A DNA stretch of 57,613 bases from Candidatus Saccharimonadota bacterium (GTDB lineage Bacteria > Patescibacteriota > Saccharimonadia > Saccharimonadales > Saccharimonadaceae): the NCBI GenBank assembly GCA_027492635.1, contig JAPUEH010000001.1, positions 30,553-88,165 on the forward strand, written 5' to 3'. The notes beneath the pieces are model-generated. The model saw only the letters and a program-made list of their open reading frames with translations. It searched no databases and was not told the DNA's origin. Shown here piece after piece: positions 38,171-57,533 of this stretch. The position numbers and the translations under genes are program-made. The first letter of the stretch is position 1, and every line of letters begins with the position of its first letter.

Positions 38171-38184
38171 GGCTGTATTATACC

Positions 38185-38598: not shown

Positions 38599-38632
38599 AC
38601 TTTTCCTTTCAATTAATACATTTGTTCCTGAG

Positions 38633-39064: not shown

Positions 39065-39369
39065 ACAAACGATCCTGATACAAATCCAGTAATACCAAAA
39101 GCCGCTAGAACAATCACAAGGCCTATAGATGCATATATAATTGCGTTCTTGCCCTTCTGTACCTGTGAAGGGTTGTCGCCACCTGTAATATACCAGAATG
39201 CACCAACTATAATAGCGATCACTGCTGCAGCGCCAGCAAAAAAGTATACCGTATTAAGGATGCTATCAAGTAAAGACGCACCTGAATCGTTTACCTGAAA
39301 CTGCGATGGGTAATTACTCGGAAGGTCAACTTTAGCATTTGATAGTAGTGATAGTATTGTATATATCAT
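39061..39369 (-). CDS. VirB2/TrbC-like pilin-type protein without signal peptide
   Basis: This is a 102-residue protein from ATG 39369 (AAGGACA upstream). It is the shortest of the set and begins MIYTILSLLSNAKVDLPSNY, with no cleavable signal. Two helices (ILNTVYFFAGAAAVIAIIVG and IIYASIGLVIVLAAFGITGF) flank FWYITGGDNPSQVQKGKN, where KGKN replaces the usual SAKN. Its stop overlaps the next start by 4 nt. A core rather than surface-exposed subunit is conceivable. Confidence 0.78.
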   Translation of the reverse strand: MIYTILSLLSNAKVDLPSNYPSQFQVNDSGASLLDSILNTVYFFAGAAAVIAIIVGAFWYITGGDNPSQVQKGKNAIIYASIGLVIVLAAFGITGFVSGSFV

Positions 39370-39389
39370 AAGTGTCCTTAGTTTTTATT

Positions 39390-39812
39390 TTACACCAATA
39401 TTAGATTTACTATACCTATAGAGGCGATTGATATCACTAACCCAATCACCGCATTAAGAATAGTCTTACGGCCTTTTTCATTGGCGTCTGGTGATCCGGC
39501 ACTTGTTATATACTTGAAGCCCCCAATGATAATAAAAGCTACGGCGACATATGCCACGATATGAAGGAGAATTTCCACAATATTAACCGCGAGGGTAGAG
39601 AAAAACTGCGAAAGATTAGAAGAAGGGTCTTTAATCTCGCAGGTGCCACCGCTACCTGGCTCCACTAGCCCTCGATACCAAGCAGGGAGCGTCAATAGAC
39701 GTTCATCACCACATGCAGCATAGGATGCCGGAGTATACATAAAAGATCCAAGCAGCGACGCTAGTGCACCAAATAGTAGTAAGTAGATTGTTTGTTGTGT
39801 TCGTTTTATCAT
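39390..39812 (-). CDS. VirB2/TrbC-like pilin-type protein
   Basis: This is a 140-residue protein whose ATG overlaps the stop of the 619-residue gene (ATGA). It has a signal peptide (about residues 1-32, MYTPASYAA), then two Cys (AACGDER, GGTCEIKD), and helices LAVNIVEILLHIVAYVAVAF and ILNAVIGLVISIASIGIVNL around GGFKYITSAGSPDANEKGRK. The GRKTI end of the linker parallels the SAKNTI of other copies. Translational coupling suggests it is made together with the large Cys-rich protein. Confidence 0.8.
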   Translation of the reverse strand: MIKRTQQTIYLLLFGALASLLGSFMYTPASYAACGDERLLTLPAWYRGLVEPGSGGTCEIKDPSSNLSQFFSTLAVNIVEILLHIVAYVAVAFIIIGGFKYITSAGSPDANEKGRKTILNAVIGLVISIASIGIVNLILV

Positions 39813-41668
39813 CTAAAGGCTCCTCCAGGTATTATATATTGCATTATAGCCCACATGGCCGCAAAAAGCACAAGTCCGATTATAACATTTCTCATAAACT
39901 CAATAGCCTGCTTGCGTTCGCCTGCATCGTCTGACGATGAAGCGTAACGTACTGCTCCCCATACAATACCAGCGGTCGCGACAACACCTACAAGTGCAAA
40001 GAGAATATTCATAATGATTAGCATGAGATTCCAGATACCCGACCTGTCGAGTGTATTACCACCACGACAAGTAAAGTAGGCTGTGAGGACTCCACCGCAA
40101 TCGTTTGCCTCACCGCGTGCAGTCTGTATCATTTGACTCACATCATTGACATTATTAGCAGGGTTATTAGGGTCGATAACACGCCCCAGAGGTGGGCCGG
40201 GGTTATATATACGTGATTTTTCAGTACGGAGGCCATCCTGGCAGCCTTTGTCACCTCCGCAAAATGCATAATCTACAATATACTGCACATGACCTTCGAT
40301 ACATGCTTCTCGGGCACGCGACGAAAGCTCCTGGCGATATTGCTCGGCAAACTCATCAGTATTTATCTCTATAGAAAATGGATCATACGCACCGCCTAAA
40401 TTAACCGGGGTTGGATCGTAACCATTCGTCGGAACGGCACGGGGGAAGTTTCCGGTGCGTCCTGCTATCGTGCCAATATTTCCGTAGGGCTGCATTTCTC
40501 GTAGGTATTTATTAAACTCTTCTGCAAACTTACCAGGAAAATTTGCATATGCCCTTGGAGGCTTTGTACCCAGATAGCGAGCAGAGCATATCATACCCTT
40601 GCCAAATCCAATCTCATACCCTATATAGCAAGAGTGTAATATATACCTCCAGTCATAACGATCTTCCTCTAGAGTGTCATAATACTCACAAAAAGTCTTC
40701 GCCGAGGCAGAGGGTCCGTAGGCGACTTGATTGACATTATATCTTGCGTTTGGAGCTGCCGCCTTGATTGATTTAATCCAACGCTCTGCTTCTTTTTTAT
40801 TCTCCTCCACACATTTCGGGTCGGGTCGTCTGTTTTGAGGATTTCGAAGATCACTACCATCTTCAATAAATCCGCAAAGGCCTGAATCTCCCTCTGAAAC
40901 ACTAAAAACCTCAACACAGTCAGGCTCCACGGTCTGTCCTCCTACTGCACTACCAACCTGCTTCATCTGACATTGATAACACTTATTATCATTTAGGCCA
41001 TCTGCTGGAATAGTATTGTAGCCTATAGAGGCACTCGTTCCTCCTACGTTTTGATTATTGACCGCGTAGGGAACTCCATTGACAAATGTAATACCATTGC
41101 CACCCCTAGTCGTTCTAGGAGGACAAGTGTAGTTGTCTTTTTTTACATCACCAGTAGGATCGCCATCGTTGCCAACCCTACATATCGCATCATCTGCTAG
41201 CGATTGATTATTAATATCACATTCAAACTGATAGCATTTATTCGGATCATAACTCTGTCTTCCATCTTCACTGTATATACCCTTTCGCTTTTCGGCTTGA
41301 AAATAGTCGTTCAATGCACTACCGGAAAGATTGTAGACAGACCTTCTGTCCCCATTATCGTTATGACTATCCACTACACCGTCACATCCACCCCCCTGAA
41401 TAGTAGGTCGTTCAGTGTATGCCTGAGGGGTATAACTAGATGGCTGGCTTGAGGTAGGTTGATATGAGCTACCATTCCATTTATAGCACTGGGAACTATT
41501 CCAGTTTGTTTTATTAGTAACACGTTGCAAAGTCGCAGAGTCAACCTCTCCGTTTGGACATTTCCCATAAGCCAGCACTGTTGCATTGCTGTACGCAAAC
41601 GCAGAGAAAACAGCGCACACTATAGAAAGTGTCAAAAATGCCAAATTACCACCAATCCGTATACCCAT
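39809..41668 (-). CDS. Large Cys-rich ectodomain fused to a pilin-like two-helix domain
   Basis: This is a 619-residue protein: signal peptide (about residues 1-34, NATVLAYGKC), then about 510 residues of polar sequence with about 20 Cys in spaced pairs (NKCYQFECD, DNKCYQCQMK), and a C-terminal two-helix domain (about 546-619, IWNLMLIIMNILFALVGVV and IIGLVLFAAMWAIMQYIIPG) that ends IIPGGAFR. The last part matches the neighbours 41741-42196 and 42206-42640 (IPGG(I/V)F ends). It looks like a minor pilin or tip adhesin with a disulphide-rich head, or an anchored channel cap. No catalytic motif was found. Confidence 0.8.
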   Translation of the reverse strand: MGIRIGGNLAFLTLSIVCAVFSAFAYSNATVLAYGKCPNGEVDSATLQRVTNKTNWNSSQCYKWNGSSYQPTSSQPSSYTPQAYTERPTIQGGGCDGVVDSHNDNGDRRSVYNLSGSALNDYFQAEKRKGIYSEDGRQSYDPNKCYQFECDINNQSLADDAICRVGNDGDPTGDVKKDNYTCPPRTTRGGNGITFVNGVPYAVNNQNVGGTSASIGYNTIPADGLNDNKCYQCQMKQVGSAVGGQTVEPDCVEVFSVSEGDSGLCGFIEDGSDLRNPQNRRPDPKCVEENKKEAERWIKSIKAAAPNARYNVNQVAYGPSASAKTFCEYYDTLEEDRYDWRYILHSCYIGYEIGFGKGMICSARYLGTKPPRAYANFPGKFAEEFNKYLREMQPYGNIGTIAGRTGNFPRAVPTNGYDPTPVNLGGAYDPFSIEINTDEFAEQYRQELSSRAREACIEGHVQYIVDYAFCGGDKGCQDGLRTEKSRIYNPGPPLGRVIDPNNPANNVNDVSQMIQTARGEANDCGGVLTAYFTCRGGNTLDRSGIWNLMLIIMNILFALVGVVATAGIVWGAVRYASSSDDAGERKQAIEFMRNVIIGLVLFAAMWAIMQYIIPGGAFR

Positions 41669-41740
41669 AATGCTTATACTTTATAGTAATCCGTTCGCAA
41701 AGAAAGTACAACTCGTAAAACTATACCTAGCCACGTGTCT

Positions 41741-42196
41741 CTATGGAGTAGGAGGTCCTGCTGCAGCATTAAAGATACCGCCAGGGATAAGATACTGAAG
41801 TATCACAAACATCCCAGCGTACAGCACGATACCTATAATGACATTGCGGATAATTCCGACAGCCTCCTGTACTTGAGATGAGTTGTCCTGTGCTGATGTA
41901 TACATGATTGCGCCATAGACAATCCCCCCAACAGCCAATATTCCAACAAGACCTGTCATGATATTAAGCGCCATGATCAGCAATGACCATAGACCTGAGT
42001 TTTGAAGTGCACCGCCGCCTTGACCGCCACCGCCGCCACCTTGACCACCACAATCCAATACAGCCGTCTCAACACCACAAGTGTCAATAGCCGCAGCCTG
42101 ACTTGTTAATACCCATTGAAAACTAAGGGTGATACACATTGTAACCATGACAGTAAGGAAAAACTTCATATTGCTTTTGATAGTAGCATACATCAT
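41741..42196 (-). CDS. VirB2/TrbC-like pilin-type protein, subtype 2 (IPGG end)
   Basis: This is a 151-residue protein with a signal peptide (about residues 8-36), two Cys (DTCGVETAVLDC), a Gly/Gln-rich spacer (GGQGGGGGGQGGG) and helices SLLIMALNIMTGLVGILAVG and IIGIVLYAGMFVILQYLIPG, ending GGIFNAAAGPPTP. The linker IMYTSAQDNSSQVQEAVG differs from subtype 1. The IPGG(I/V/A)F end defines a second subtype with 42206-42640 and the tail of 39809-41668. Start 9 nt after the upstream stop. Confidence 0.82.
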   Translation of the reverse strand: MMYATIKSNMKFFLTVMVTMCITLSFQWVLTSQAAAIDTCGVETAVLDCGGQGGGGGGQGGGALQNSGLWSLLIMALNIMTGLVGILAVGGIVYGAIMYTSAQDNSSQVQEAVGIIRNVIIGIVLYAGMFVILQYLIPGGIFNAAAGPPTP

Positions 42197-42205
42197 GGAC
42201 TATTA

Positions 42206-42640
42206 TCAAAATACCCCGCCAGGAATGGCATATTCTAGAATGACATACATACCCGCAAACGCTACAAACCCAATAATCACATCACGGATAATCACCTTTG
42301 CCTTGGCTGCTTGCGACTCGTTATCTCCTGCGCTTGCATACATAATAGCGCCCCAAACAACGCCGCCAACTCCCACAACACCCGCAAGCGATATCGCTAT
42401 ACCAAGAAGATAACTCAACAACCACCAAAAACCTGTATTTTCAAGCCTAGATGCTTCGGCAGGGGCGTTACATTTGATGTAAGAGGTGTCTACGCCCGCA
42501 CAGCGCTCGCTAGCAAGTGCCTGGCTGGGTACAAGGACAGGAAAGCTGATTGCTGCAACGAGACCAATAAGAGCCATTAGTTTCACACAGTCGCGAAGCA
42601 TTGCAGTAGTATTTAACCATAAGCGTGTTGCGGATTGCAT
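42206..42640 (-). CDS. VirB2/TrbC-like pilin-type protein, subtype 2 (IPGG end)
   Basis: This 144-residue protein is the first gene of the minus-strand cluster. An internal ATG at 42601 would give a shorter signal peptide (MLRDCVKLMALIGLVAAISF). Two Cys follow (SERCAGVDTSYIKC), then helices LLSYLLGIAISLAGVVGVGG and VIIGFVAFAGMYVILEYAIP with IMYASAGDNESQAAKAK between and the end IPGGVF. It is divergent from the first VirB6-like gene, with only 28 bp between the outermost starts (67 bp if 42601 is used). Confidence 0.8.
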   Translation of the reverse strand: MQSATRLWLNTTAMLRDCVKLMALIGLVAAISFPVLVPSQALASERCAGVDTSYIKCNAPAEASRLENTGFWWLLSYLLGIAISLAGVVGVGGVVWGAIMYASAGDNESQAAKAKVIIRDVIIGFVAFAGMYVILEYAIPGGVF

Positions 42641-42668: not shown

Positions 42669-45098
42669 ATGTATCTCTATAATTTCACCCGACGAAGCTA
42701 CATATTTATCTTTGCGGCAAGCTGCACACTCTTGGCCATGATTATTGGCTTGCTGTTTTTTAGCCAGCCGGTTTATGCAGATGACAACAAGGCTCAGTGG
42801 CGAGGAAATGACCTGTATCTACACGGCAATAAATTCGTGCGTACCGATTATGGCAGTATCAATGAAGAGGTCTATAACGATAATGCCCGTCATAGGATGA
42901 AGGAGCTAAAACGAGACTTTCCTCCGCCACAGTATAATACAGATGCCGACTTCGAGACTTGGACTTTTTTTGAGTGGAAAGAGAATAGTGACTGTCAAGA
43001 CGTCATTGCAATCCCTCCTAATGACAACATAAAGCAAGTGACACATGTTGCTTTTTGGCGAGTCGATGGCAAGAAATTTGGTGGCAACAACTACCATGGC
43101 GGCCCATATAGCGTCTTCTACAGCGTAAGCGCAGGCTGTTGGGTCACTCAGTCAAAGTACGTCCCCGTAGAGCAGGTTCGTCTTGATGCCAATGGCAGGC
43201 CCATTCCCCCAGATGAAACTCCAAACGAGGAAGGGAAGCAGGCATGTGAAGCTCAATGGCTTGGGTGGATTATATGTCAAGTATCGCGTGTGATTGCATT
43301 AACTGTTCAAGGCGCCTTCAAGGTATTGAAAATGCTTATGGTACTACCCCCTCTAGATAGAAACCAGCCTGGAGGAAGGGAACTATTTGATATATGGGGA
43401 TCTTTTCGTAATCTTGCCAATCTATTCTTTATATTTATATTTCTCACAATAGTCATATCCCAAGTTACAAATATGGGTATTAGTAATTATGGCGTAAAAA
43501 AGATGCTACCTCGCATGATTGTTGTTGCTGTGCTTATCAACGTGTCTTTTATCCTGTGCGCAATCTTAGTTGACGTATTCAATGTGCTGGGTAATTCTAT
43601 ATTTGATATCCTCATGAGTGTTCAAAGCCGAGTTGATCCAGAATTTGGTGCTTTTGGTAATATTGCTGGTTCTGCATTTGTTTTGGCTGGAGCGGGCGCA
43701 CTAGGGGCTTTGATCTATATAAATGCACTTGCTCTCGTGCCACTACTAGTAAGTGGTATCTTTGCGCTTTTTGTTACGATTATCACTCTAGTGGTGCGCC
43801 AGGCTGTACTCATTATATTCGTCGCGCTTTCCCCCTTGGCATTTGCACTTAATATCTTACCCTCAACTCAGCCGTGGTTTAATAAATATTGGTCAAACTT
43901 CATGACGCTTCTGATGCTATATCCAGCAATTGCCGCCGTGTTTGGAGGGTCCCAGGTACTCGCTGGAGTAGTGAGTGCGGCCGCACCAGCCACAAGCTCA
44001 GGAATAACCAGTGATGTCACTAAATTAATTTTTGCCGTCCTTGCAATAGCAGTGCAATTAATACCATTCTTTTTTACTCCCCTTATCGTCAAGCTAAGCG
44101 GTCAATTGGTCAATAAACTCTCGGCGGCAGTTAACAATCCTTCCAAGAAGCTATTTGACAAAGGTCAGGAGAGGGCAGGGCAGTGGGCCGAAGACAAGGA
44201 GAAGCAACGCGAAACAGCTGCCCTAAACAAAAACGGCGGTGGGCTTTACACCAGAGTGAAGAAACGTTCCAATGCACGCAAACAAATTGCCGATCATCAT
44301 GCATCGCAGCTCTCCGACCCAACAAAGGGTGCATATGGAAGCTTTATGTCACAGTCGGGCAATCAGGCAAAAGTCGCAAAAGCTTTGGGTAAAAATGCTG
44401 CTCTTGCCCCTCCGCCCGGAGGAGCTGGAGCTAATCAAGGAAGTCCTGGAGGAGGAGCTTCACAGCCTGGTGGCACCCCACCAACTCAACCAACACCACC
44501 TAGCAGTGCTCAACACAGGCAAGATGCGCTAGAGAATCAACTACAGGGACTTAGTCTAAATCTTGAGATTTCCGAGATAGAAGCGGCCACTGCCATATTT
44601 ACAGAAGACGACTACAACAGAGATGAGCTTCGTAATGCGGCGTACGATGGAGTCAAAAAAGACGGAGCGAATCTTACGGAGGATGAAGTAGCTGCGGCAC
44701 GTCAACTCTTGGCAAAATCTGGCACATTAGATGATATACATAAGTTGATTGAACAGGTGCGAGATGAGCAGGGCTCCGCAAGCGCGCGTGAGGCCTTGAT
44801 AAAAGGCATATCAAACAATCCTGTGGCCAAAGGCGCATCCCACTTAAACGCAGAAGGAATTAGGGCTGGACAGGGTGTCGGCGAGCTCTACGATAGCGCA
44901 GCAAGCAGAGGGGCATACACGCCTGGTGGATTAGCCTCGCAAAACTCCGCTGCCATAGCAGGCTTAGCCCAACACTCAGGTCACCTATCAGAATCCTCCA
45001 AGGCTAACATACGCAATAGTCGGGAGATAGTCCACTCCAAAGAAAAGTATCGCAACCATCTTTCGCCCAAGGATGTTGCTCACATCAACAGTATCTAG
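42669..45098 (+). CDS. VirB6/TrbL-like membrane protein 1
   Basis: This is an 809-residue protein from ATG 42669. It has a signal anchor (about residues 12-36, SQPVYAD), an outside domain of about 160 residues, and LGWIICQVSR (about 197). A block of several helices (about 245-480) starts with FRNLANLFFIFIFLTIVISQ, NYGVKKMLPRMIVVAVLINV and LCAILVDVFNVLGN. The Gln/Ala/Pro-rich cytoplasmic tail of about 330 residues includes LDDIHKLIEQV and LYDSAASRGAYTPGGLASQN. All five tandem genes share this plan. VirB6/TrbL proteins form the inner-membrane channel of type IV secretion systems; identity rests on topology and context. Confidence 0.75.
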   Translation: MYLYNFTRRSYIFIFAASCTLLAMIIGLLFFSQPVYADDNKAQWRGNDLYLHGNKFVRTDYGSINEEVYNDNARHRMKELKRDFPPPQYNTDADFETWTFFEWKENSDCQDVIAIPPNDNIKQVTHVAFWRVDGKKFGGNNYHGGPYSVFYSVSAGCWVTQSKYVPVEQVRLDANGRPIPPDETPNEEGKQACEAQWLGWIICQVSRVIALTVQGAFKVLKMLMVLPPLDRNQPGGRELFDIWGSFRNLANLFFIFIFLTIVISQVTNMGISNYGVKKMLPRMIVVAVLINVSFILCAILVDVFNVLGNSIFDILMSVQSRVDPEFGAFGNIAGSAFVLAGAGALGALIYINALALVPLLVSGIFALFVTIITLVVRQAVLIIFVALSPLAFALNILPSTQPWFNKYWSNFMTLLMLYPAIAAVFGGSQVLAGVVSAAAPATSSGITSDVTKLIFAVLAIAVQLIPFFFTPLIVKLSGQLVNKLSAAVNNPSKKLFDKGQERAGQWAEDKEKQRETAALNKNGGGLYTRVKKRSNARKQIADHHASQLSDPTKGAYGSFMSQSGNQAKVAKALGKNAALAPPPGGAGANQGSPGGGASQPGGTPPTQPTPPSSAQHRQDALENQLQGLSLNLEISEIEAATAIFTEDDYNRDELRNAAYDGVKKDGANLTEDEVAAARQLLAKSGTLDDIHKLIEQVRDEQGSASAREALIKGISNNPVAKGASHLNAEGIRAGQGVGELYDSAASRGAYTPGGLASQNSAAIAGLAQHSGHLSESSKANIRNSREIVHSKEKYRNHLSPKDVAHINSI

Positions 45099-45145
45099 CT
45101 ACCCTTTATCTTTCACTACTTTTACTGCATAATGATATCAAGCTT

Positions 45146-47881
45146 ATGTTAAAGAGATGGCTATTGTATTATTTGGGTGGGGCACTGCTGCTTAGTGCCT
45201 CTCTGAGTCTGTTTCAAACCCCGAATGTTTCAGCCGCTGGCGAGTCTTACACTTGGGTGAATTACTCAAAGATAGGGGCACGAGGTGGAAGTTATGCGTC
45301 GCTAAATATTCGTGCTCTTGGTAACGAGACTCCGCAAGATTTTAGCCAACCGTATGATGTTGAGTTTACCCAAGATGAGAATGACCCGCATCTGTTTACT
45401 GCAAAACCAGGCACACCAGACTGCCCAGGGGAATTAAAACTTACACTTACTAGTACACCGGGCAGTCGAGAGGGGAATCTGCAGGTATCAAACTGCGCGC
45501 CACTCACTCAAGCAACAAACCCAGTCACGATAAGGGACGACGGGGCAATATTCGCTAAAACCTCTAATGATCAGGCGATTATGCGGTCGGCCTTTATGGA
45601 AAAGAACTGCCCTAGTAAGGATAGTGATGGATCCCCTCAGGCACAGGCAAGACAACAAGACTGTGAGGATCAAGCCCAGACCGCCTACACGACAGCAGTT
45701 AACGAGTGTAAGCAACAATTTAATTACGAAAACTCCCCACAGCTAGCAAACAAGTATCTTACTTGCTTGGCAGAGAAGCTATGCGTAGACCGGCCATCAG
45801 AAACCACAGAAGCAAAAGAGCCTAAAGACACACCTCCAAAATGTGCCCTTGGTGATATCGGATGGATTGTATGTCAAATATTCCAGCTTGAATCATGGCT
45901 TGCAGATAAGTCGTTTGAGCTACTCTCACGATTCATGACAGTTGATCCACTCAAAAAGGAGGTTCAGCTACCAACGCCGCCCCAAGGGCAACCCCAAAAC
46001 CCTCAGGCACCATCCCAACAAGGACAAACAGCAGACCGTAATCGCAACACACAACTTCCAACAACAGCAGGAAACGAAACGACCGTATACTCTGCATGGA
46101 AATTATTCCTTGGAGTCACAAACCTGATTTTTATCGCAGCGTTTCTTTTGGTTATATTTTCATATATTACGGGGTGGGGTCTATCGGCATACAATATCAA
46201 GCGCACCCTCCCGCGCATGATTGTCGCCGTGATATTGTCATCTGGGTCATTTTTGATTTGCGCACTCGCCGTTGACCTGTCAAATGTTGTGGGTAAGTTT
46301 ACCCAACAAACACTTATCGATATATCTCCTCCCGGGTCATATGGCAGCTGGACGGAAATTACCAGTAAGGTCGTATCAACAACAGGATCCGACGAAGAAA
46401 CAAGCTCAACTCCAGACACGGAGTTTACTGAACCATCTTCGCAACCCCAAACCACCCCTCCTTCAAACCCGTCACAGGGAACATGTACAGCAAATATTCA
46501 GCCTCAACCTGACGTACAGCAGAACAGTGAAGAAGATCAAGGAATCGATGAGCCCCGATCGTTTGACGCAACAACCCAACAAAAACTCATGGTTGGAGGT
46601 GCGTATGTATTTGGCCCTATGATCATCTTCGCACTCTTGATTGTGCTCCTTCCATTTATGACCGCAGCACTACTCGCCATCGTGGCAACTCTGATAATAC
46701 TCATGCTGCGGCAAGTAATTATTATCGTACTCGTAGTAATATCGCCCGTGGCATTTGCTTTCTTTGTACTACCCAATACAAAGAAATGGTTTGAAAAGTG
46801 GAAAACCACCTTTACCACGGTGTTGATGTTATACCCTATAGTATCCCTAATATACGGTGCTGCATACTTTGCATCTCAGACGATTTACTCGCGAAGTGAA
46901 GAATACGACAGCTTGCTACTCTCAATGTTTGCCCTGGGTATATTAACCATACCTCTTTTTATGACTCCTGCTCTCATGAAAATGGGAGGGGGTCTGATGG
47001 AAAAATTTGCAGGTGTTGTTCAGCAAAAAAATCCACTCAACAGACTACAAGGCATGGCAGATGCGCACAGTGAAAGTAGGAAAAATGTCAAACGTCGCCA
47101 AGCAGCAAATGCAAGCGGACTACGTCTTCTAAATCCAGCCGTACAGATGCGTCGTTTTGGAATGCGAAGCCAGGCAAAGAGTCAGCAAACCAACCGCACA
47201 CTGCAGCACGTGCAGGCACGCTATAACGCTTCTCAAGGCATGAATACAGCGTCAAGCGCCGGTACTTCGAGCCAGTCTATCGATCAGATTCTGGCCGATG
47301 AGCTAAGTAAATTAGACTCAATCCATATGAAAGAAATCAAAGCGATATCGGGCCAGTTCGAGCAGACAAAAGATCATGACGAAATTAAAGAGATGGCTCA
47401 GTCAGGTATGGATGGTTCACGTGTCCTTAGTGACGTAGAGCGAGCAGCAGCGGTGCAGGCAGCTCTCAATCATGCAAGCTCTGAAGAAGTTCATGATATT
47501 ATTGCAGAATCAGGCAAGATGGGTGATCTAGCCAGGCGAACACTTGTTGATTCAATGAGAAAAACTGGCTTCACAAAACAAAATTCACATTTCGGCGGTG
47601 GTGCTATGAATCAAATATTAGAAGGTAAGGTGAACGGGCAAGGTGATATAGACAACATAATGGCTCGGGCGGCTTCAGCCAACGCCTATGGATCAAACGT
47701 TCTTGCAAATCAAAGTGACTACACGATCGGCCGCCTGTCTGAGCTAAAGAGACAAGGTAAAATTGACGCGACAGGAGTGGGTAATCTCCAGCGAAGCGCT
47801 GCGACAATCGGCGGTAGCGCAAAGCTTCGAGGACAAGTAGCCCCAGACACTCTTGCCGCCATCGAAAGGCTGGGCCGATAA
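45146..47881 (+). CDS. VirB6/TrbL-like membrane protein 2
   Basis: This is a 911-residue protein: signal peptide (about residues 8-30), an ectodomain of about 205 residues with several Cys, IGWIVCQIFQLE (about 240), and the helix block (about 316-615) with YNIKRTLPRMIVAVILSSGS and LICALAVDLSNVVGK. Between helices, residues of about 393-470 form an extra Thr/Ser/Pro-rich loop absent from its paralogues. The cytoplasmic tail carries VHDIIAESGKMGDLARRTLV, equivalent to the tails of copies 1 and 4. A CATAAT-type box but no ribosome site precedes the ATG, so it may have its own promoter. Confidence 0.75.
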   Translation: MLKRWLLYYLGGALLLSASLSLFQTPNVSAAGESYTWVNYSKIGARGGSYASLNIRALGNETPQDFSQPYDVEFTQDENDPHLFTAKPGTPDCPGELKLTLTSTPGSREGNLQVSNCAPLTQATNPVTIRDDGAIFAKTSNDQAIMRSAFMEKNCPSKDSDGSPQAQARQQDCEDQAQTAYTTAVNECKQQFNYENSPQLANKYLTCLAEKLCVDRPSETTEAKEPKDTPPKCALGDIGWIVCQIFQLESWLADKSFELLSRFMTVDPLKKEVQLPTPPQGQPQNPQAPSQQGQTADRNRNTQLPTTAGNETTVYSAWKLFLGVTNLIFIAAFLLVIFSYITGWGLSAYNIKRTLPRMIVAVILSSGSFLICALAVDLSNVVGKFTQQTLIDISPPGSYGSWTEITSKVVSTTGSDEETSSTPDTEFTEPSSQPQTTPPSNPSQGTCTANIQPQPDVQQNSEEDQGIDEPRSFDATTQQKLMVGGAYVFGPMIIFALLIVLLPFMTAALLAIVATLIILMLRQVIIIVLVVISPVAFAFFVLPNTKKWFEKWKTTFTTVLMLYPIVSLIYGAAYFASQTIYSRSEEYDSLLLSMFALGILTIPLFMTPALMKMGGGLMEKFAGVVQQKNPLNRLQGMADAHSESRKNVKRRQAANASGLRLLNPAVQMRRFGMRSQAKSQQTNRTLQHVQARYNASQGMNTASSAGTSSQSIDQILADELSKLDSIHMKEIKAISGQFEQTKDHDEIKEMAQSGMDGSRVLSDVERAAAVQAALNHASSEEVHDIIAESGKMGDLARRTLVDSMRKTGFTKQNSHFGGGAMNQILEGKVNGQGDIDNIMARAASANAYGSNVLANQSDYTIGRLSELKRQGKIDATGVGNLQRSAATIGGSAKLRGQVAPDTLAAIERLGR

Positions 47882-47942
47882 TGCCTCTCCCTACCATATA
47901 CATGCGCCCACTTGGTATAATACCAACCAAAGGTGGGAAGCA

Positions 47943-50396
47943 ATGAAACTTAGAACACGAACATATATTTTAGGCTCTACACTAAGCGTTCTATCTATCT
48001 TTGGTGCTCTATTGTTTATTTTTCCTTCACAAAACGCCAGTGCCGCCATCGGAGATGTTTGCCATCCGCCACTAAGCAGCGAAATGATAGAGGCTTGCAC
48101 AGATGGCTATAACAATGGAGTAGGCGACGGAAGTGTCTGTAGTCAGTATGATGGAGATCAAGCCCTTGTTGATATATGCGAAGATGGCTTTGATCAATAT
48201 GTAACAGACCTCAACAGATGTACAGGTACTCGATCAGTGTACACACCTGTCAGACAACGAGCCACTTTTGCTTCTCACTCCTCATCTTATACACGTGACG
48301 CAAAGCTTGCTGTACCGTTTAATGGAGACCCTGGTATCTATACTAATCCGAATAACGGACAACCAAAAAGCGAAGAAGAATGCAAACAAGAACTGAGAGG
48401 GGGTCAAAATAACCCAAGCAATCCAAACAACACAACTTCACAGCCGCAATCGCCGCCACCAGAAAAAGACGTAGGACAAATACCAGACGATGGCTCGATA
48501 GTCCCCATGGCTCACAAGCAGGAGAATGGTCAGCCAGTCGAATCAAACGCGCAAAAGTGTGGTATAGACGGCTTCTTCGGCACGACTGTTTGCGGTCTTA
48601 CTTTAATGACTGCCAAGGTAACCGATGGTGCTTTTTATGTTCTCAAAGTATTTCTTGAAACTGAACCTGTTTTTCAAACAGGTCGAGGGGGCGGCGACTC
48701 AACCATCTATTTAGCGTGGTCGATTCTTCGTGGATTTGCGAATGTATTTATGGTAATTGCATTTTTGGTCATTATATATTCCTACATAACAAATGCAGGC
48801 ATAGATAATTATGGACTAAAACGGATGATCCCACGCCTTATAGCGGGAGCAATTCTTATTAACCTATCGTTTTGGATTTGTGCAATCTTTGTCGATATAT
48901 CCAACATACTCGGTAAGGTTTTGATCGACGTGATACCAAACGTCATCAACCTGAACGACGCAAACAACAACCCCCCGGAATATAGCGGATGGGCAGATGC
49001 AGTAGGAAGCGTTCTCTTTGTTGGTTCGGCAGCAATTGCTGGTGGTGCTGCAGTTATGTATGGTAGCTTTTCGGCGCTGGCGCCTATATTGGCATCTGCT
49101 GTTATTGCCATTGTCACTACCTTTGTGCTCCTGATGATTCGACAAGTACTTATTATCCTGTTCATTGTTGTTTCACCTCTGGCGTTTGCCGCCATCCTAC
49201 TTCCAAACACACACTCATGGTTCGAAAAATGGAGAAAGGCTTTTGTACCCATTCTCATGCTATATCCTGTGGTCTCCTTTATATTTGGAATGAGCCAGCT
49301 TGCAGCAATAATGATACGAAATGTTGGTATAGCTCAAAGTACCGATCCAGACATGAATACAGTTATCGGCGTACTACTCATTATCTTTTCCCTTGGGATT
49401 CAGATTGCGCCACTCCTACTCATCCCCCGTGTCATGAAGCTTGGCGGAAATCTCATGAATAAGTGGGTCGGTAGCGGAGAAGGGAAGTTGGCAAAGGGCT
49501 TAAAAGGAAAGGCTCAGGACTATGCCGATCGAAAACAAAAAGAAAGGGATATAGGTGCATTATGGCACGGCGCGCAGGGCACGAAATCCCAGAATCCTCT
49601 TAAGCAGGTACGCAATAGAGCAATCCAGCGACGCTATAGCCGCCAAGCGAAAAGCCAGCAAATCAGCAACCAGCTTGCTACAGCACAGCTGTCATCATTC
49701 GCAAATCAGCTTCAAAACAGTCCTCGCATGCAAAAACAGCTAAGCCAATCATCAAATGCAGGGCTAATGAAAAGTGCCCTAAATCATGTACTTCATGCTA
49801 GAGTAAAAGCAAAGGCAGATGCTGTAAAAGTGCAGCAGGAAGCTAATGTCGCAAAGGGTCAAACGCGCGAACAGCGCATTGAGGAGGCAATTAATAGCGC
49901 AGGACATGTTAGTGAAATTGCTCAAGAGGCAGCAATTTTATCAGTAGCACAATCAGGCGATATCGGTGCGCTTTTAAATGTTATGAAAAACTCTACTAAT
50001 ATGACCGTCAAGCAGCGAAGAAAACTCATAGAAACAGCAGCTCAGTCGGGCGCCGTAAATGGCATGCCTATGCTAGCAGACTCCGATGTTCGCGAATCAT
50101 TTGCTCAAGACGGCTATTCAAATTTCATAGGCCAAAGCATTGCCGAAGGTGACCATAGCCCAGAAAATGTCGCAGCTCTCGATCAAGATGTCGCAAAAGA
50201 AATTGCAGACTACATAGACCAGGCAGCACAAAATGGAACAGATATTCCTCCTGAAAAAATCAAGGAAATCACCAAAGCTGCTGCAGCAGCAACCGACGCA
50301 ACCAACAACCCAGAGACTGCCGCCAAGGTTGCCAAAAACCGTGACCAGCTCATCAGGATCGCATCTTACGACACTCATAACTGGGGAGAATCGTAA
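47943..50396 (+). CDS. VirB6/TrbL-like membrane protein 3
   Basis: This is an 817-residue protein from ATG 47943 (AGGTGGG upstream). It has a signal peptide (about residues 10-33), a Cys-containing ectodomain with an Asn/Pro/Gln-rich part (NNPSNPNNTTSQPQS), GFFGTTVCGLTLMTAK (about 209), and the helix block (about 257-505) with NYGLKRMIPRLIAGAILINL and ICAIFVDISNILGK. The tail is helical and Ala/Gln-rich (QSGDIGALLNVMKN then RRKLIETAAQSG), the same scheme as its paralogues but more diverged. The stop overlaps the next ATG by 1 nt (TAATG). Confidence 0.75.
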   Translation: MKLRTRTYILGSTLSVLSIFGALLFIFPSQNASAAIGDVCHPPLSSEMIEACTDGYNNGVGDGSVCSQYDGDQALVDICEDGFDQYVTDLNRCTGTRSVYTPVRQRATFASHSSSYTRDAKLAVPFNGDPGIYTNPNNGQPKSEEECKQELRGGQNNPSNPNNTTSQPQSPPPEKDVGQIPDDGSIVPMAHKQENGQPVESNAQKCGIDGFFGTTVCGLTLMTAKVTDGAFYVLKVFLETEPVFQTGRGGGDSTIYLAWSILRGFANVFMVIAFLVIIYSYITNAGIDNYGLKRMIPRLIAGAILINLSFWICAIFVDISNILGKVLIDVIPNVINLNDANNNPPEYSGWADAVGSVLFVGSAAIAGGAAVMYGSFSALAPILASAVIAIVTTFVLLMIRQVLIILFIVVSPLAFAAILLPNTHSWFEKWRKAFVPILMLYPVVSFIFGMSQLAAIMIRNVGIAQSTDPDMNTVIGVLLIIFSLGIQIAPLLLIPRVMKLGGNLMNKWVGSGEGKLAKGLKGKAQDYADRKQKERDIGALWHGAQGTKSQNPLKQVRNRAIQRRYSRQAKSQQISNQLATAQLSSFANQLQNSPRMQKQLSQSSNAGLMKSALNHVLHARVKAKADAVKVQQEANVAKGQTREQRIEEAINSAGHVSEIAQEAAILSVAQSGDIGALLNVMKNSTNMTVKQRRKLIETAAQSGAVNGMPMLADSDVRESFAQDGYSNFIGQSIAEGDHSPENVAALDQDVAKEIADYIDQAAQNGTDIPPEKIKEITKAAAAATDATNNPETAAKVAKNRDQLIRIASYDTHNWGES

Positions 50397-53300
50397 TGCG
50401 TAGAGTTCTTTTATATATCGCCACACTCTCGGTGATAATCCAGGCTTTTTCAATACAGCCCGTTTTTGCTGATAATACTACTCGCCAAGGACAACGCAAC
50501 GATAATAACGAATACTACTATCTCGACTACAGTGAGTCAGATGATAAACTAACGCTCATTGGCACCGCAGGCGAATACGCAGAAGATGTAAAGTTCAAAG
50601 AAGTAAAAGATGACTCAGATGAAGCTGTACGTTCAGAAGCTCAGCCTTGGCGCGACCGTGGCTATCGCGTATTTACTCCAGAAGGTAAGTCAATTAAGCT
50701 TGCAGACACCAGTCAAAGTCAGACTATTGAAGGGGATGGTGTATCCGAGAAAGAAGCCAGCCAACAATACCAAGAGTGCACGTCGCTACCAACAAAGCGA
50801 TGGATAAAACGAGAACATCTGCGAGAAGATCCCCCTGAAGATAAAGATAGAAAACCATCATTGCTAGCTATAGTCGACCCTCGCAAAGGAACTTTGCAAA
50901 TGAGCATCACAGGAGATGCAATAGACCCGCATGATCTTAGTCGTATCATAGAAGACGGAGACCAGCAGCCGTGGAATGTAGCAGAAGATATCACAAATCT
51001 ACATATTGATTTTGACGGAGATGGATCCCTGATAAAAAACTCGGGGCTCTTCCTATGGGGCAAATTGAACCAGACCAAGTTTAGAATCGATGATCAGTCC
51101 GAGCCTGTGGGTGATAAACCCCCAGAAACAACAGGTGGACACACTGTCTCTCAGGCAGATAGAGAGGCCTATAATTTTAGAGTCAAGGTGTACGCCAATG
51201 GACCAGATAGAATTATAATCCCACCCCAGTTATATGCGACCGGCCCTTATGCACTAGGGGCTGATCTCGGAGATATTGAAATAAATACTCCGGATAGGTA
51301 TAGGATGCCCGACAAGCTTGTCCGAGCAACCCTCGGGGAAGAAGATTCTACGACCTGTAAATATAAGTTCTACGATCACTTTTGGCGATGGGTTTCCCCT
51401 TATAGCGCCCTCAATCCACAACCCGGACTACCAAATGGCAAGCTACTAGGCAATCCAAAGATGAAGTTTGACGACTGGGCGAATAATGGTGACAATAGGT
51501 TGGCTTTTTTTGCATATCACAACACCTCCCAAACAAAATACCTCAAACAATGTGCAAACCAACAGGATATGGAGAAATGCACAACCTCTCTCGACGACAC
51601 ATTCTACAAGTGCTACGGTCGTGGAATCGATAAAGATCTCGATGCGCTCAAGTCAAAAGTAAATGACCAAACGTCATCAGACGCCATACCACGGGACTAC
51701 GGGTCTACGCGTATCACTGGCGGACCACAAGGCTCGAAAGATGCCAATGTTCACGATAATGTTGACTTCCTCAATACCAACGAGAACGATGTTATATCTG
51801 CTCGGAATGAAATATGGAAAAACAAAGTCGACGAAGACAAAGCCGTTGAATGCTACACACAAGAAGCTAGTATCAAAGACTACTTTGCCGACGACGAAGA
51901 AATCACCGACTTTGCAGAGTCTATATTCAGTGAAACCACTCTCCCGCCATCACTCAAACCAGACAAAGCCGATGCAGTCACCACTAGCTTCGCAAAAGCC
52001 CCCGACGACACACGCTGCTCGCTCGGTATGCTCGGCTGGATACTATGTCCAACCATATCTTTCATTGCCGCAATTAACGACAAAGTCTATGACATGTTAA
52101 AAAACTGGCTTGTTATAGCACCATTCCAATTAAACGGTAGCTACAACACACCTGCATATGAAACATGGAAAAACATGCGAACAGTTAGTAATGCTATATT
52201 TGTCGTTGCATTTATGTATATTCTCTACGCGCAAATCACGGGCAACGGATCAAGCGCCTATGGACTACGTGTACGCGCGCCTCGCATCATAATTGCAGCA
52301 TTATTAACCAACTTATCGTATATACTTTGCGGAATCATCATAGACATCACAAATGTCCTTGGAGATTCGTTGTTTAGAGTATTGATGAATGTAACAATAG
52401 GTTCCTCAACTGTTGGTCAGTACGGCAGCTTCGAGGCTGTCGCTGCAAGTGTCACCTTAGCTGGTGGTGCAGCAGCAGGAACATGGGTGATTATAGCGAA
52501 TTTGGCGGCTCTTATACCAATGCTAGTGGCGGCTCTTATTGCCCTCGCAGGTGCATTCGTTATGCTTCTCTTCAGACAAGCCATCATTATCCTGCTGATA
52601 GCCATCTCGCCTTTGGCATTTGCAATGATCGCTGTACCAGGGCTCGAAAAATGGTTTGATAAATGGAAATCAATATTCCTTCAGCTGGCAATGGTCTACC
52701 CAATCTTTGCACTATTGTTTGGGGGTGGCAATATGATTGCCGAAATTATACGTGGAGACGCAGCCGAAGAGGGGGATATCATAATGACAATCTTGTCGCT
52801 CGGCATTCAGGTATTACCTCTATTCTTGATACCTTTTATTCTCAAGATGGGCAGTAGTTATCTTCAGCAAGTTGCAGGTGTATTTGACCGCGGAACTAAG
52901 AGTGGTACAGATGGAATACGCAAAAAAGCACAAGATTTCAGGGATGATCGAAAGATGCAGCAACAAACCAGGGCACTCAATGGGCGAAGGGGCGTCCCCG
53001 GATACGGTGCACTCATCCGTTTTGGCCAACGTAGTCAAGCAGTTCAAAGTGCCCGTCAAAAAGGCGCCAAACGCGATGCCGCCAAGTACGCCGCAAAGAA
53101 TCGAGACTCGCTTGCTAGAGGTATTTTAGGTAAAAATGCTGACGCAGAACTCTACCAGCTTGTTCAAATGGGCTTCTTGACAGCGCAAGACGCGGAGGCA
53201 ATGGAAGAACACGAAGCGGCTTTAGCCAATATACATCAAGGAGACCCACGTATAGACAAGGCGTATAATGAGATACTAAGCAAAAGCCTTGGCGAGCGTA

Positions 53301-53767
53301 AAGCAACAGGTGAGCATTCGGCAGCTATCGAGCGTATAGTTCAAAGTAGGGATATGGATAAAATCCACGATCTCATCGACAATCTCGATAAACTCAATGC
53401 CTTCGAGCGCAAGGTGCTTGTCGAGACAATACATGCAATGGGTCTCTCAAAAGAAGCAGCCCACCTCGATAGCGCCAATCTCACAGGCGTCTATGATGGC
53501 ACATATCACGGTGGTGTTGATGGACTATACGCCAGTGCAGCGGCAAATAATCTCTACACACCAGAGACAGTAGCACAGCAAAGTGCGCATTCTCTATCTG
53601 GACTTGAAACGGCTCATAACAACGGAGCGGTCACCGACAGCCAGTATAAAGCAGTGGGCGACTCCTTTCATACCGCAACCAGTACACCGCAGATACGCAG
53701 TAAGATGAGCTCCAGTACTTACAGCAAGGGGCATAGTATGTTTCCTAGAGGAGGGGCGAGCTCATGA
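50396..53767 (+). CDS. VirB6/TrbL-like membrane protein 4, the largest
   Basis: This is a 1123-residue protein. The signal peptide (about residues 1-25) is followed by an ectodomain of about 515 residues, more than twice that of its paralogues, with paired Cys (QECTSL, KQCANQQDMEKC, FYKCYG). LGMLGWILC (about 542) precedes the helix block (about 590-825), including AYGLRVRAPRIIIAALLTNL and ILCGIIIDITNVLGD. The tail has MDKIHDLIDNLDKLNAFERK and GLYASAAANNLYTPETVAQQ, closely matching copy 1. It overlaps the next gene by ATGA. The large head could be the part that contacts the outside. Confidence 0.75.
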   Translation: MRRVLLYIATLSVIIQAFSIQPVFADNTTRQGQRNDNNEYYYLDYSESDDKLTLIGTAGEYAEDVKFKEVKDDSDEAVRSEAQPWRDRGYRVFTPEGKSIKLADTSQSQTIEGDGVSEKEASQQYQECTSLPTKRWIKREHLREDPPEDKDRKPSLLAIVDPRKGTLQMSITGDAIDPHDLSRIIEDGDQQPWNVAEDITNLHIDFDGDGSLIKNSGLFLWGKLNQTKFRIDDQSEPVGDKPPETTGGHTVSQADREAYNFRVKVYANGPDRIIIPPQLYATGPYALGADLGDIEINTPDRYRMPDKLVRATLGEEDSTTCKYKFYDHFWRWVSPYSALNPQPGLPNGKLLGNPKMKFDDWANNGDNRLAFFAYHNTSQTKYLKQCANQQDMEKCTTSLDDTFYKCYGRGIDKDLDALKSKVNDQTSSDAIPRDYGSTRITGGPQGSKDANVHDNVDFLNTNENDVISARNEIWKNKVDEDKAVECYTQEASIKDYFADDEEITDFAESIFSETTLPPSLKPDKADAVTTSFAKAPDDTRCSLGMLGWILCPTISFIAAINDKVYDMLKNWLVIAPFQLNGSYNTPAYETWKNMRTVSNAIFVVAFMYILYAQITGNGSSAYGLRVRAPRIIIAALLTNLSYILCGIIIDITNVLGDSLFRVLMNVTIGSSTVGQYGSFEAVAASVTLAGGAAAGTWVIIANLAALIPMLVAALIALAGAFVMLLFRQAIIILLIAISPLAFAMIAVPGLEKWFDKWKSIFLQLAMVYPIFALLFGGGNMIAEIIRGDAAEEGDIIMTILSLGIQVLPLFLIPFILKMGSSYLQQVAGVFDRGTKSGTDGIRKKAQDFRDDRKMQQQTRALNGRRGVPGYGALIRFGQRSQAVQSARQKGAKRDAAKYAAKNRDSLARGILGKNADAELYQLVQMGFLTAQDAEAMEEHEAALANIHQGDPRIDKAYNEILSKSLGERKATGEHSAAIERIVQSRDMDKIHDLIDNLDKLNAFERKVLVETIHAMGLSKEAAHLDSANLTGVYDGTYHGGVDGLYASAAANNLYTPETVAQQSAHSLSGLETAHNNGAVTDSQYKAVGDSFHTATSTPQIRSKMSSSTYSKGHSMFPRGGASS

Positions 53768-56610
53768 GTAGGCGTTTTATCTATACACTTACAGGACTAC
53801 TCAGTGTCTTTGCCTGCGCCATAGGCGTGAGTATACCCGCATCAGCTGCTCCCATCCAATATATCTGGAATGGTAATGAGCAAATTATTGGTATCGGTGG
53901 TCCACTAGAGCAAATGAAATACTCTAAGCAAAAAAAAGATAACGATGCGACCGGTGTTACTTTTAAGCTCGACCGCGAGGGTGAAGGCGGTGTATATTAT
54001 AAAGCCGGCAACCTGAGAATTGGCAACAAGGATGCAACCGATCCTCTTGACGTGCGCAAAGGTGATGCCAGTGTCGATTCCGACAGCCTATTCGAAGACA
54101 TCTTTAGTACGGTATACGGCACAACACCAAAGCAAGTACAGTGCTTTATTACCTCTATGTCTCTTGTTTACAGTCCTAGCGAGAATAAAATAGTTGACGT
54201 AATAGTACATGAAGCCGCCATGGAAGCCGATGGCGGCAACTGGATTGCAAAAGCCGCCACAGCAGCAAACAATATGCTGAACACTTGCAAAAAAACATTC
54301 AACGGGGCATTTCTAACGGGCAAACTCAAGGCGGCCGATAGAACGGATAACATGTTCACGGCCACCGTCGAATCCCGTCAGGGGCACAATCCTATCTATT
54401 ACCGTTTCAACAAACAGCTTGGCATCATGTTTAATCGAGAGATTAACCGTTACCAACATAGGGTTTGCGGTATACCAAAAGCAAAACCAGAATGCATTGA
54501 ACCTACACGAAATATATACAGAAAGATATGGCTTGAATGCCGCTACAACTCTTATAATTCAGGTGAGTTGTCTGAAGCGAGCGAAGGTATTAACGATAGC
54601 GAAGAGGGCGGAAGAGCCCCTGCTAAAAAATTCGCTGCATGCATCAAAGAGAAGTCAGGTCTTGGAATAAATGAGAATCTGCTTGAACACAATACCGCCG
54701 TTGATATTGTTAGCTACGGCGATCGTTCCGGCTGTACAATCCCAAGTATTGGATACATTATTTGTCCACTTTCGCGCTTCCTCGCTAAAGTTGTAGACAA
54801 TACTTTCCAAGCCTTCTCTGTTTACTTTAAGGTAACGCCTCTCGACAGAGGAACTCCTGCAGGAGACGCTTTGCATAAAGTATGGGCGCTTATGCGTAAT
54901 ATCGCCAACGCAATCTTCATTTTAATTTTTCTACTTGTTATTGCAGCGCAGGTATCAAACTTTGGCATCAGCAATTATGGAGTAAAGCGCATGCTGCCAA
55001 AACTCATTGTAACTGCGCTTATCATCAATGCATCATATATCCTGTGTACATTTGCGGTAGATGTGGCAAATATCCTTGGAAATACACTGCGAAATGTCAT
55101 GGAACTCATGGTCCCTAACGCACCCCTGAAGCTGGATTTTGCAGCCCAAAGTGATGCGGCGAATAATTGGTCAAACACAACAAATTCAATCGTAGCACAC
55201 ACGGCTCTAGTTGGTAGCGTTGGACTGGTTGCGCTTACCGCATCGATAGTAGGACTAATTCCGCTACTTGTAGGGGCAGCTATCGCCGTCATTACAGCAA
55301 TGATCCTTATACTGATACGTTATGTAGCGATCCTTGGTCTTGTTGCTATTGCACCATTAGCGATAGCCTGCTCACTTCTTCCCGGCACTAAGTCGTGGTA
55401 TAAGCGATGGCTGAGTATGTTTACGTCTATGCTGATGCTCTATCCACTAATTTCACTTATCGTGGGCGCGTCAACTCTCGCAAGCGTAATAGTCATGAAT
55501 TCAAGCCTCACCCGTGAAACAGGTGGCGTGACTCTTGTACTCTTCGGTCTAGCTATTCAGTTTCTACCCCTTGCGCTCACACCTCTTATGCTGAAGTTCG
55601 GGGGGACGGAGTTCGGAAAAATTGCTAATAAAGTCCAGAACAACAAGGGATTTGGAGCAGCTAAGAATAAGGCTGGAGAGGTCAGGCAACGCCGCAAAAA
55701 TGCCCGAGATTTCAAAGCACTTCAGCACTCCGGCGCCAACCGTCGAGGAGGCGTTCGAGGCCTGCGAGATCGCATGATTCAGCGTAAATACCTTAAAAAA
55801 GGCGTTCGTACAATGCGCCAAGGTGAGCTCGACCGTAGTAGAAACCAATACTTAGCAGATTATGTTTCCGGCAAAGACGGATCAGGTGGAGATAAAGTTA
55901 GCTTACTCGAAAGAGCAAAGCAAGCTGGCTCAAAAGCCGTCCCTGGATATAACTATCAAGCAAAAAATAAAGGTACAAAACTAGCAAATAAAATGGCGGC
56001 CGGGGGAGGCTCTGCAGCCGATGTACTCAACTCATTCCAAAAAGCGAGTGTTAAATTTGATACCGATGTCGTAGAGGCGCACAAGGCCGGAATGAGATCA
56101 CAAATGCGACAATCTGGTAGTCTAGATAACACCTTAAATCAGGCTACCGACCCTGCTGCCGATGTTGCCATACGTCAAGCAGCAATTGAGATTGTTAAGG
56201 AGAGTGGTACACAGCAAGACATCTCACAACTCGTCAAGTCATCCAATACAATGACACCTACCCAACGAGCCACGACAGCACAGGCAGCGGCGACATCATC
56301 GCCACTATATAGCGCCCCTGAGATGCAAAACGCCATCCTATCAGGAAATATGAGCCCAGCTACCCATGACCAACATATTGCAAGCGTCATCAATTCCGGC
56401 CAACTTAGCGCCGAAGACTATGGGGCGTTTGATTCGCATACTCTTTCTGAGATCGAACGATCCCTACCTTTGGCAGACGCAAGTGCCACACAGGCTGCGC
56501 GTAGTTCAGCACAAGCAGCACACACTTCACCTTCATCTAATGCGCGTATGGATGATGCGAGTCGCGCGGCTCTTGATAGGTTTGCACGCGGCCCAAATAA
56601 CACCCCATAA
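53764..56610 (+). CDS. VirB6/TrbL-like membrane protein 5
   Basis: This is a 948-residue protein. It has a signal peptide (about residues 8-29, GVSIPASAAP), an ectodomain of about 290 residues with Cys (VQCFIT, NTCKKT, VCGIPKAKPEC, WLECRY, FAACIKE), SIGYIICPLSRF (about 327) and the helix block (about 375-615) with NYGVKRMLPKLIVTALIINA and LCTFAVDVANILGN. The basic KARRKN-type region and Ala/Gln-rich tail (TQQDISQLVKSSNTMTPTQR) repeat the family scheme. It is translationally coupled to copy 4. Confidence 0.75.
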   Translation: MSRRFIYTLTGLLSVFACAIGVSIPASAAPIQYIWNGNEQIIGIGGPLEQMKYSKQKKDNDATGVTFKLDREGEGGVYYKAGNLRIGNKDATDPLDVRKGDASVDSDSLFEDIFSTVYGTTPKQVQCFITSMSLVYSPSENKIVDVIVHEAAMEADGGNWIAKAATAANNMLNTCKKTFNGAFLTGKLKAADRTDNMFTATVESRQGHNPIYYRFNKQLGIMFNREINRYQHRVCGIPKAKPECIEPTRNIYRKIWLECRYNSYNSGELSEASEGINDSEEGGRAPAKKFAACIKEKSGLGINENLLEHNTAVDIVSYGDRSGCTIPSIGYIICPLSRFLAKVVDNTFQAFSVYFKVTPLDRGTPAGDALHKVWALMRNIANAIFILIFLLVIAAQVSNFGISNYGVKRMLPKLIVTALIINASYILCTFAVDVANILGNTLRNVMELMVPNAPLKLDFAAQSDAANNWSNTTNSIVAHTALVGSVGLVALTASIVGLIPLLVGAAIAVITAMILILIRYVAILGLVAIAPLAIACSLLPGTKSWYKRWLSMFTSMLMLYPLISLIVGASTLASVIVMNSSLTRETGGVTLVLFGLAIQFLPLALTPLMLKFGGTEFGKIANKVQNNKGFGAAKNKAGEVRQRRKNARDFKALQHSGANRRGGVRGLRDRMIQRKYLKKGVRTMRQGELDRSRNQYLADYVSGKDGSGGDKVSLLERAKQAGSKAVPGYNYQAKNKGTKLANKMAAGGGSAADVLNSFQKASVKFDTDVVEAHKAGMRSQMRQSGSLDNTLNQATDPAADVAIRQAAIEIVKESGTQQDISQLVKSSNTMTPTQRATTAQAAATSSPLYSAPEMQNAILSGNMSPATHDQHIASVINSGQLSAEDYGAFDSHTLSEIERSLPLADASATQAARSSAQAAHTSPSSNARMDDASRAALDRFARGPNNTP

Positions 56611-56651: not shown

Positions 56652-57533
56652 ATGGCAGTCTATAAAGTACCCCAAGACGTCGAAGCAGATGACAAGCTAC
56701 TTGGCCCATTTAGCTTTAGGCAATTCATCTACCTACTTGTTGTGGCGATGGCTATCGGCATGGGGTACGTGTTATCGCAGATCTTCATTGGCCTAGTTGT
56801 CATTGTTATTCCTATCATTGTGTTTTTTGGTGCGTTAGCTCTCCCGCTCAAAAAAGACCAGCCTATGGAAACGTACCTCGGTGCGCTCATATCTTTTTAT
56901 TTTCTCAAGCCGCGCAGGCGCTTGTGGCAGCCCGATGGACTCAACGCGCTTGTGGAAATTACTGCCCCAAAAACAGTAGAGCCCGAACTCAAAAAAGACA
57001 TCTCCGAAGAAGAAGCCGTACAGCGTCTCGGCTATCTTTCGGAAATCGTTGAGTCGCGCGGATGGTCTGTGCGTGGAGTAGGGGTGTCGCCTCAGGGAAT
57101 CGCCACCGCCGAACCCGAAACTGCCGCAATCACCTACGACAATGACATGCTAGACGACACAAACACAGAAGTGCAGCGCTTTGACCAAATGCTCAACGCC
57201 CGCGACCAGCAGGAAATGTCCACTTTGCGCAACAATTTTCAGCAGCAAATCGCCGCACCTCCGCCTGTAGCAATACCTCAATTACAATACAATCCGTACC
57301 CGCCGATACAGCAATCTGTCATACAACCCCTCTCGGTACAGCCCCAACCCGCTATACAGCAACCTCTGCCCCCCGAACCCCAAAGCACTAGCGCAACCAC
57401 CCCCTCACCTGATATAATCAAACTTGCAAACGAAAGTGAGGATCTCTCGGTGGCCTCGATCGCAGAACAAGCGCATCGTATCGAAAAAGAACATGGCCTA
57501 CCAGATGGGGAAGTGGAGATATCACTGCATTAA
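56652..57533 (+). CDS. PrgI-family type IV secretion protein
   Basis: This is a 293-residue protein from ATG 56652; TATACT lies 9 nt upstream, so a separate near-leaderless transcript is possible. Residues 1-105 match PrgI/VirB3-like proteins of Gram-positive conjugation systems: VYKVPQDVEADDKLLGPFSF, two close helices (FIYLLVVAMAIGMGYVLSQ and FIGLVVIVIPIIVFFGALAL), then LGALISFYFLKPRRRLWQP. The C-terminal 190 residues are hydrophilic with a Pro/Gln-rich run, an extension beyond normal PrgI length. PrgI proteins sit next to and work with the VirB4 ATPase, which is expected right after this gene. Confidence 0.88.
   Translation: MAVYKVPQDVEADDKLLGPFSFRQFIYLLVVAMAIGMGYVLSQIFIGLVVIVIPIIVFFGALALPLKKDQPMETYLGALISFYFLKPRRRLWQPDGLNALVEITAPKTVEPELKKDISEEEAVQRLGYLSEIVESRGWSVRGVGVSPQGIATAEPETAAITYDNDMLDDTNTEVQRFDQMLNARDQQEMSTLRNNFQQQIAAPPPVAIPQLQYNPYPPIQQSVIQPLSVQPQPAIQQPLPPEPQSTSATTPSPDIIKLANESEDLSVASIAEQAHRIEKEHGLPDGEVEISLH

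Follow-up and report, generated by a model that had tools for sequence, protein, structure and literature searches.

When several genes for the same channel component lie side by side, each coding for a head of its own, one may ask whether a single channel makes use of several kinds of subunit. Such an arrangement is found in the window, by which we mean throughout the whole stretch of 57,613 nucleotides that was analysed. Five tandem open reading frames occupy positions 42669-56610 on the + strand, exactly where the original prediction had placed five VirB6/TrbL-like proteins. All five, named here v1 to v5, code for extended VirB6 proteins. The first, v1 (809 amino acids, 42669-45098), has its head at 42669-43235, its core at 43236-44132 and its tail at 44133-45095. 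It is followed by v2 (911 amino acids, 45146-47881; head 45146-45832, core 45833-47020 with a long insert, tail 47021-47878) and v3 (817 amino acids, 47943-50396; head 47943-48548, core 48549-49475, tail 49476-50393). The largest head belongs to v4 (1123 amino acids, 50396-53767; head 50396-52006, core 52007-52885, tail 52886-53764), and v5 closes the series (948 amino acids, 53764-56610; head 53764-54723, core 54724-55635, tail 55636-56607). Each protein begins with a hydrophobic segment, which is counted in its head of 189-537 residues; the core that follows, some 300 residues long, contains several membrane segments and leads into a tail of 286-324 residues. The genes are separated by +47, +61, -1 and -4 bases in this genome (G000) and by +57, -4, -1 and -4 bases in a congener (G001); the 4-base overlap of v4 and v5 is common to G000, G001, G003 and G008. 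The G+C content of the array, 46.3% as against 48.1% for the whole window, is uninformative on foreign origin. Phase variation by means of repeats was considered and rejected, since the locus has neither inverted nor simple repeats, a single A8 tract excepted.

What are these proteins? The TrbL/VirB6 family PF04610 is the top Pfam match for all five, each time below the curated cut-off (E 4.5e-4 for v1, 6.9e-4 for v2, 0.003 for v3, 0.04 for v4 and 1e-4 for v5), and v2 further matches NCBIfam CD3337_EF1877 (E 3e-5, again below cut-off). A paralogue encoded elsewhere in the genome, O2, scores above the PF04610 cut-off, and the same family matches 25 of 49 relatives (E up to 0.05; best 5e-8). An AlphaFold2 model of v1, made from a 49-row alignment, has a pLDDT of about 90 in the core and 90-97 in the C-terminal tail domain, the head being poorly modelled. 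Searched against the PDB with Foldseek, the core retrieves R388 TrwI/VirB6 at ranks 1-8 (probability 0.47-0.99, E 0.009-0.45). A second aligner places Legionella DotA (Z 8.6) and TrwI (Z 8.0-8.3) at ranks 1-4, the match spanning model residues 207-485 or so; a Z of about 8 is modest for helical proteins, one designed helical protein tying at 8.0, and the top rows of both lists are almost all VirB6-class proteins. The modelled v1 core thus has the VirB6-type fold, with long helices as in TrwI and DotA. Both of these best matches are stalk or protochannel proteins: VirB6 and DotA form pentameric stalks (PMC9259494, PMC12857230), and that of R388 VirB6 is five-fold and matches the pilus (PMC9259494). 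By contrast with v1-v5, these stalks are described as homopentamers of a single protein, and TrwI, with about 270 residues in the structures, is devoid of a large head or tail. PDB sequence searches with full-protein or tail profiles yielded no credible relative. Taken alone, the tail resembled armadillo/HEAT-like helical structures only weakly (Z 6.6 at best, Foldseek probability no higher than 0.38), and with matches this weak we claim no fold for it; it has the appearance of a small helical-repeat domain and might serve for docking.

The five proteins resemble one another to very different degrees along their length. Relative to v1, v2-v5 are 24-29% identical over the full length and 32-35% in the core. 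Leave-one-out core profiles recover each omitted paralogue at E values of 2e-74 to 7e-82 (v3 7e-82, v4 4e-78, v5 3e-78), while the six-row core profile reaches 0.23 at best against 1000 shuffled sequences: the relatedness of the cores is far above chance. In the core alignment of six paralogues 23 columns are invariant, which bears out the predicted consensus. They include two cysteines (C..GWIxC) and residues of the YGxKRMxPR and NxSxxxCxxxVDxxNxxG blocks, and 13 of the core columns remain invariant across 49 relatives. Of the predicted (W/Y)I(I/V/L)C block, the cysteine is invariant and the first position is not, v3 having T there. Leave-one-out tail profiles give E values of 3e-5 to 1e-13, and the tails of v1-v5 are mutually homologous (profile-profile probability 96.7-99.9%). 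A shared tail, as announced, is therefore present; it is, however, only mildly rich in Ala and Gln (A 13-15%, Q 6-10%), and its motif, clear in v1, v2 and v4, is weak in v3 and v5. The heads deserve to be called variable, those of different classes showing no homology by profile comparison, with v2 and v5 as the sole exception. They contain 4-9 cysteines and carry a net negative charge (near neutral in v5), whereas the tails have no cysteine and, after the last membrane segment, a net positive charge. Because of this difference in charge and cysteine content, the head is likely to lie outside the cell and the tail inside, so that the cytoplasmic location proposed for the shared tail is probable.

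The neighbourhood is that of a type IV secretion system (T4SS). Upstream, on the opposite strand, some nine genes for VirB2-like pilins form an array (37317-42640, - strand; PF18895 T4SS_pilin, with two of the three genes tested above the curated cut-off and E values down to 4e-11); pilin-like genes are similarly present in relatives. Amid the small pilins, a 619-residue protein (39809-41668, - strand) combines a T4SS pilin domain with a long head rich in cysteine. Downstream of v5 follow PrgI (VirB3-like; 56652-57533, + strand; PF12666, E 4e-14), a TrsD-like gene, VirB4 and large cell-wall-active proteins. The TrsD-like gene (304 amino acids, with a weak Pfam match to TraC) occupies its expected place beside VirB4; both stand just beyond the window on the same contig (G000:C1), VirB4 (PF19044, E 2.6e-28) being two genes past PrgI. 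PrgI and VirB4 are each single-copy in the genome. Past VirB4 we find a protein with an M23 peptidase and another with GDSL, beta-lactamase-like and transglycosylase domains. Two VirD4-type ATPases are encoded on other contigs (TraG-D_C matches above cut-off); the ATPases, whose absence had been named as grounds for giving up the VirB6 identification, are thus both present. The five genes have the neighbours expected of virB6, VirB3/PrgI and VirB4, and the locus as a whole, uniting VirB4, PrgI and VirB2-like pilins, with VirD4-type ATPases away from virB4, has the composition of a Patescibacteria T4SS. That MPF_FATA-derived system comprises a pilin array, PrgI, TrsD and VirB4 (PMC12102498). 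In Candidatus Southlakia epibionticum and Nanosynbacter lyticus TM7x a single place on the chromosome gathers VirB4, a TrsD-like protein, PrgI, VirB6 and an array of divergent VirB2-like pilins, with cell-wall hydrolase genes downstream of virB4 and the VirD4-type ATPase elsewhere, as here (PMC12102498). We conclude that v1-v5 are extended VirB6 subunits of this already described machine, the single chromosomal T4SS of this Saccharibacterium, and not parts of an undescribed apparatus, as had been proposed.

What is new is a lineage-restricted expansion to five VirB6 within a known machine. The accessible part of PMC12102498 treats VirB6 as a single, poorly detected component, whereas here five copies stand in tandem and two others, O1 and O2, are encoded elsewhere in the genome, for a total of seven; moreover, members of the family often have two VirB6 that are not equivalent. 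In the oral TM7 pangenome VirB4 is highly conserved and VirB6 clade- or subclade-specific, the portion of that study at hand describing no paralogue array (PMC7739484). Multiplication of VirB6 is known in Rickettsiales. The Rickettsia Rvh system has five extended VirB6, RvhB6a-e, of 674-1154 amino acids, with divergent flanks and with similarity confined to the VirB6/TrbL domain; it belongs to alphaproteobacterial diderms, represents a separate T4SS lineage and includes VirB8-VirB10 and VirB11 (PMC2653234). In Anaplasma phagocytophilum VirB6-1 to VirB6-4 are tandem, co-transcribed and adjacent to virB3 and virB4, the extension varies between strains and two of the paralogues are surface exposed; the differences are that copies number four, that the unusual extensions are C-terminal and that the organism is an intracellular pathogen (PMC7648143). 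With five copies in one and four in the other, the premise that known systems have one or a few VirB6 was wrong. The likeness of v1-v5 to these multi-VirB6 systems is one of architecture only. The four Ehrlichia paralogues reportedly interact, to judge by the title of Bao 2009, which PMC7648143 cites. VirB6 has expanded in two unrelated groups, Rickettsiales and Saccharibacteria, both of which need living host cells.

How far does the expansion extend? The core profile was used to count VirB6 genes in two sets, 198 genomes from this family and 295 Saccharimonadia genomes with a completeness of 90% or more; the counts are lower bounds, since the profile was built from the window's genome. Most of the 295 have one or two VirB6: family members mostly two, other families one and at most two, which disposes of the idea of exactly five everywhere. 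Among the genomes counted, only three have seven matches, the window's own and those of two congeners; G008, from another genus of the family and 80% complete, has six. Within the T4SS locus, the five-gene array was found in four genomes only, that of the window's species, those of two congeners and one from a second genus of the family (G000, G001, G003 and G008), with the same positional classes between pilins and PrgI. Wherever the assembly is intact, v1-v5 are all retained; in G003 and G008 the array is split across contigs, and no v3 is seen in G008, where contigs end. A further congener, G002, has two VirB6 at the array position on one contig, and so does G046. In eight other genera the order is pilins, VirB6 'A', an unrelated gene X, VirB6 'B' and PrgI (with A and B on separate contigs in G051). 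Two relatives were deposited as Candidatus Saccharibacteria (GW2011_GWC2_48_9 and AER2_9). Gene X (for example L017:10437-11606) codes for a protein of 300-400 amino acids with one hydrophobic segment and almost no cysteine; the one example tested has no Pfam match, and we found no credible PDB relative. It is absent from the five-gene loci, and its fusion into the heads was dismissed on finding no similarity between the two. Genus g12 has another five VirB6-like genes, in an island away from virB4 and interleaved with genes for 200-400 amino acids; this island was seen in G082, G121 and G200 (L054-L058).

A tree of 51 cores unites the v1 proteins of the two genera in one group, and likewise those of v2, v3, v4 and v5; O1 and O2 are also each a single group. 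Branch support is weaker for v1 and v4, yet each is a single group in 92-100% of bootstrap trees. O1 has as its sister group the A subunits of relatives with two VirB6. In a quicker second tree v1-v5 stand together and the g12 genes form a group of their own; tandem expansion therefore happened more than once in the family, and the g12 island is an independent case. The array itself would have arisen by tandem duplication of one VirB6 lineage before the two genera split. Between congeners, identity is 94-95% for VirB4, 80-81% for TrsD and 70% for PrgI, 71-74% for the O1 core and 64-67% for the O2 core. The array cores fall to 39-53% (37-41% to the other genus), the tails to 25-37%, and the heads mostly to 20-30%, one pair reaching 50%; taken at their widest, the ranges are 37-53% for cores, 21-37% for tails and 20-33% for heads. 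The heads are among the fastest-changing parts of the locus, beside a nearly invariant ATPase, and this makes them natural candidates for a host-contact surface. S. epibionticum, so far the only Saccharibacterium in which this was tested, cannot grow epibiotically without its T4SS (PMC12102498, reporting its reference 37).

How might five such subunits be used? By analogy with R388 and DotA, the five cores would build a pentameric stalk of VirB6 type, a protochannel on which the VirB2-like pilins would assemble, with tails docking to the ATPase or to the substrate side. The window's genome has one VirB4 and one PrgI, which we counted towards a single machine. To the reading that all five are made together and enter one mixed stalk on that machine, their fast-changing heads contacting, or evading, different host-cell envelopes, we give a probability of about 0.55.

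The most serious competitor, which we think possible if rather unlikely, is that v1-v5 form alternative homomeric stalks on the same VirB4/PrgI base, different heads serving for different hosts, or different substrates. Heads that differ in kind across the five classes and evolve fastest, on shared cores and tails, would suit such a device, as would a copy number that varies among relatives. Conserved gene overlaps, however, imply joint translation, the locus offers no inverted or simple repeats to support switching, and the keeping of five classes in two genera is not predicted for spare alternatives. For these reasons, to which tight and conserved spacing must be added, the sequences make us lean towards joint use.

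A stricter form of joint use would make the stalk an obligate hetero-oligomer, perhaps a pentamer in which v1-v5 occur once each, with five different outward heads, the norm in the family being a mixed stalk of A plus B. This we consider doubtful. Array size varies, and because G002 has two VirB6 at the same place, five are not required for this type of machine; O1 and O2, by bringing the total to seven, weaken a simple pentamer of one each. The widespread A/B pair, nonetheless, is the cleaner setting in which to test hetero-oligomeric VirB6 stalks.

It is improbable, to continue, that only one or two of the five (or O1/O2) make the true channel, the others being surface proteins for which the VirB6 core is a scaffold or tether, in adhesion, exclusion or shielding. 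Other VirB6-like genes of the family are indeed remote from virB4, in islands that contain additional genes and feature giant heads, and VirB6-3 and VirB6-4 of Anaplasma are exposed at the surface (PMC7648143), but the core invariants are intact in all five proteins and v1-v5 all sit within the operon-like T4SS locus. Finally, membership of an unrelated transporter or membrane enzyme family, which single-protein Pfam scores under the curated cut-off might evoke, is hardly credible when independent sequence and structure searches rank VirB6/TrbL/DotA first and the surrounding locus is that of a T4SS.

Several further observations deserve mention. O1 (G000:C7, about 64 kb; L028:8647-11286) lies directly after dnaJ and is well conserved in the genus. 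O2 belongs to a triad (G000:C7, about 102.7-109.9 kb; L009) with a ClpB/C-like AAA+ protein, whose N-terminus is hydrophobic, and an 899-residue protein related to the M23-bearing T4SS protein; kept in G001, G002, G003 and G046, and having no VirB4 of its own, the triad could represent another T4SS-like complex, one with an ATPase of a different kind. Giant VirB6-like pairs, of up to 1718 amino acids, occur in G014, G015 and G147. The assemblies of G001, G003 and G008 break within or just past the VirB6 array (L011/L012, L014-L016 and L018/L019), perhaps as a result of strain differences of this region within the sample. Congeners share only 24-37% identity in the M23-peptidase protein encoded downstream of virB4, and at L007 (5087-8551 and 14458-17391) two related M23/GDSL gene pairs stand close together.
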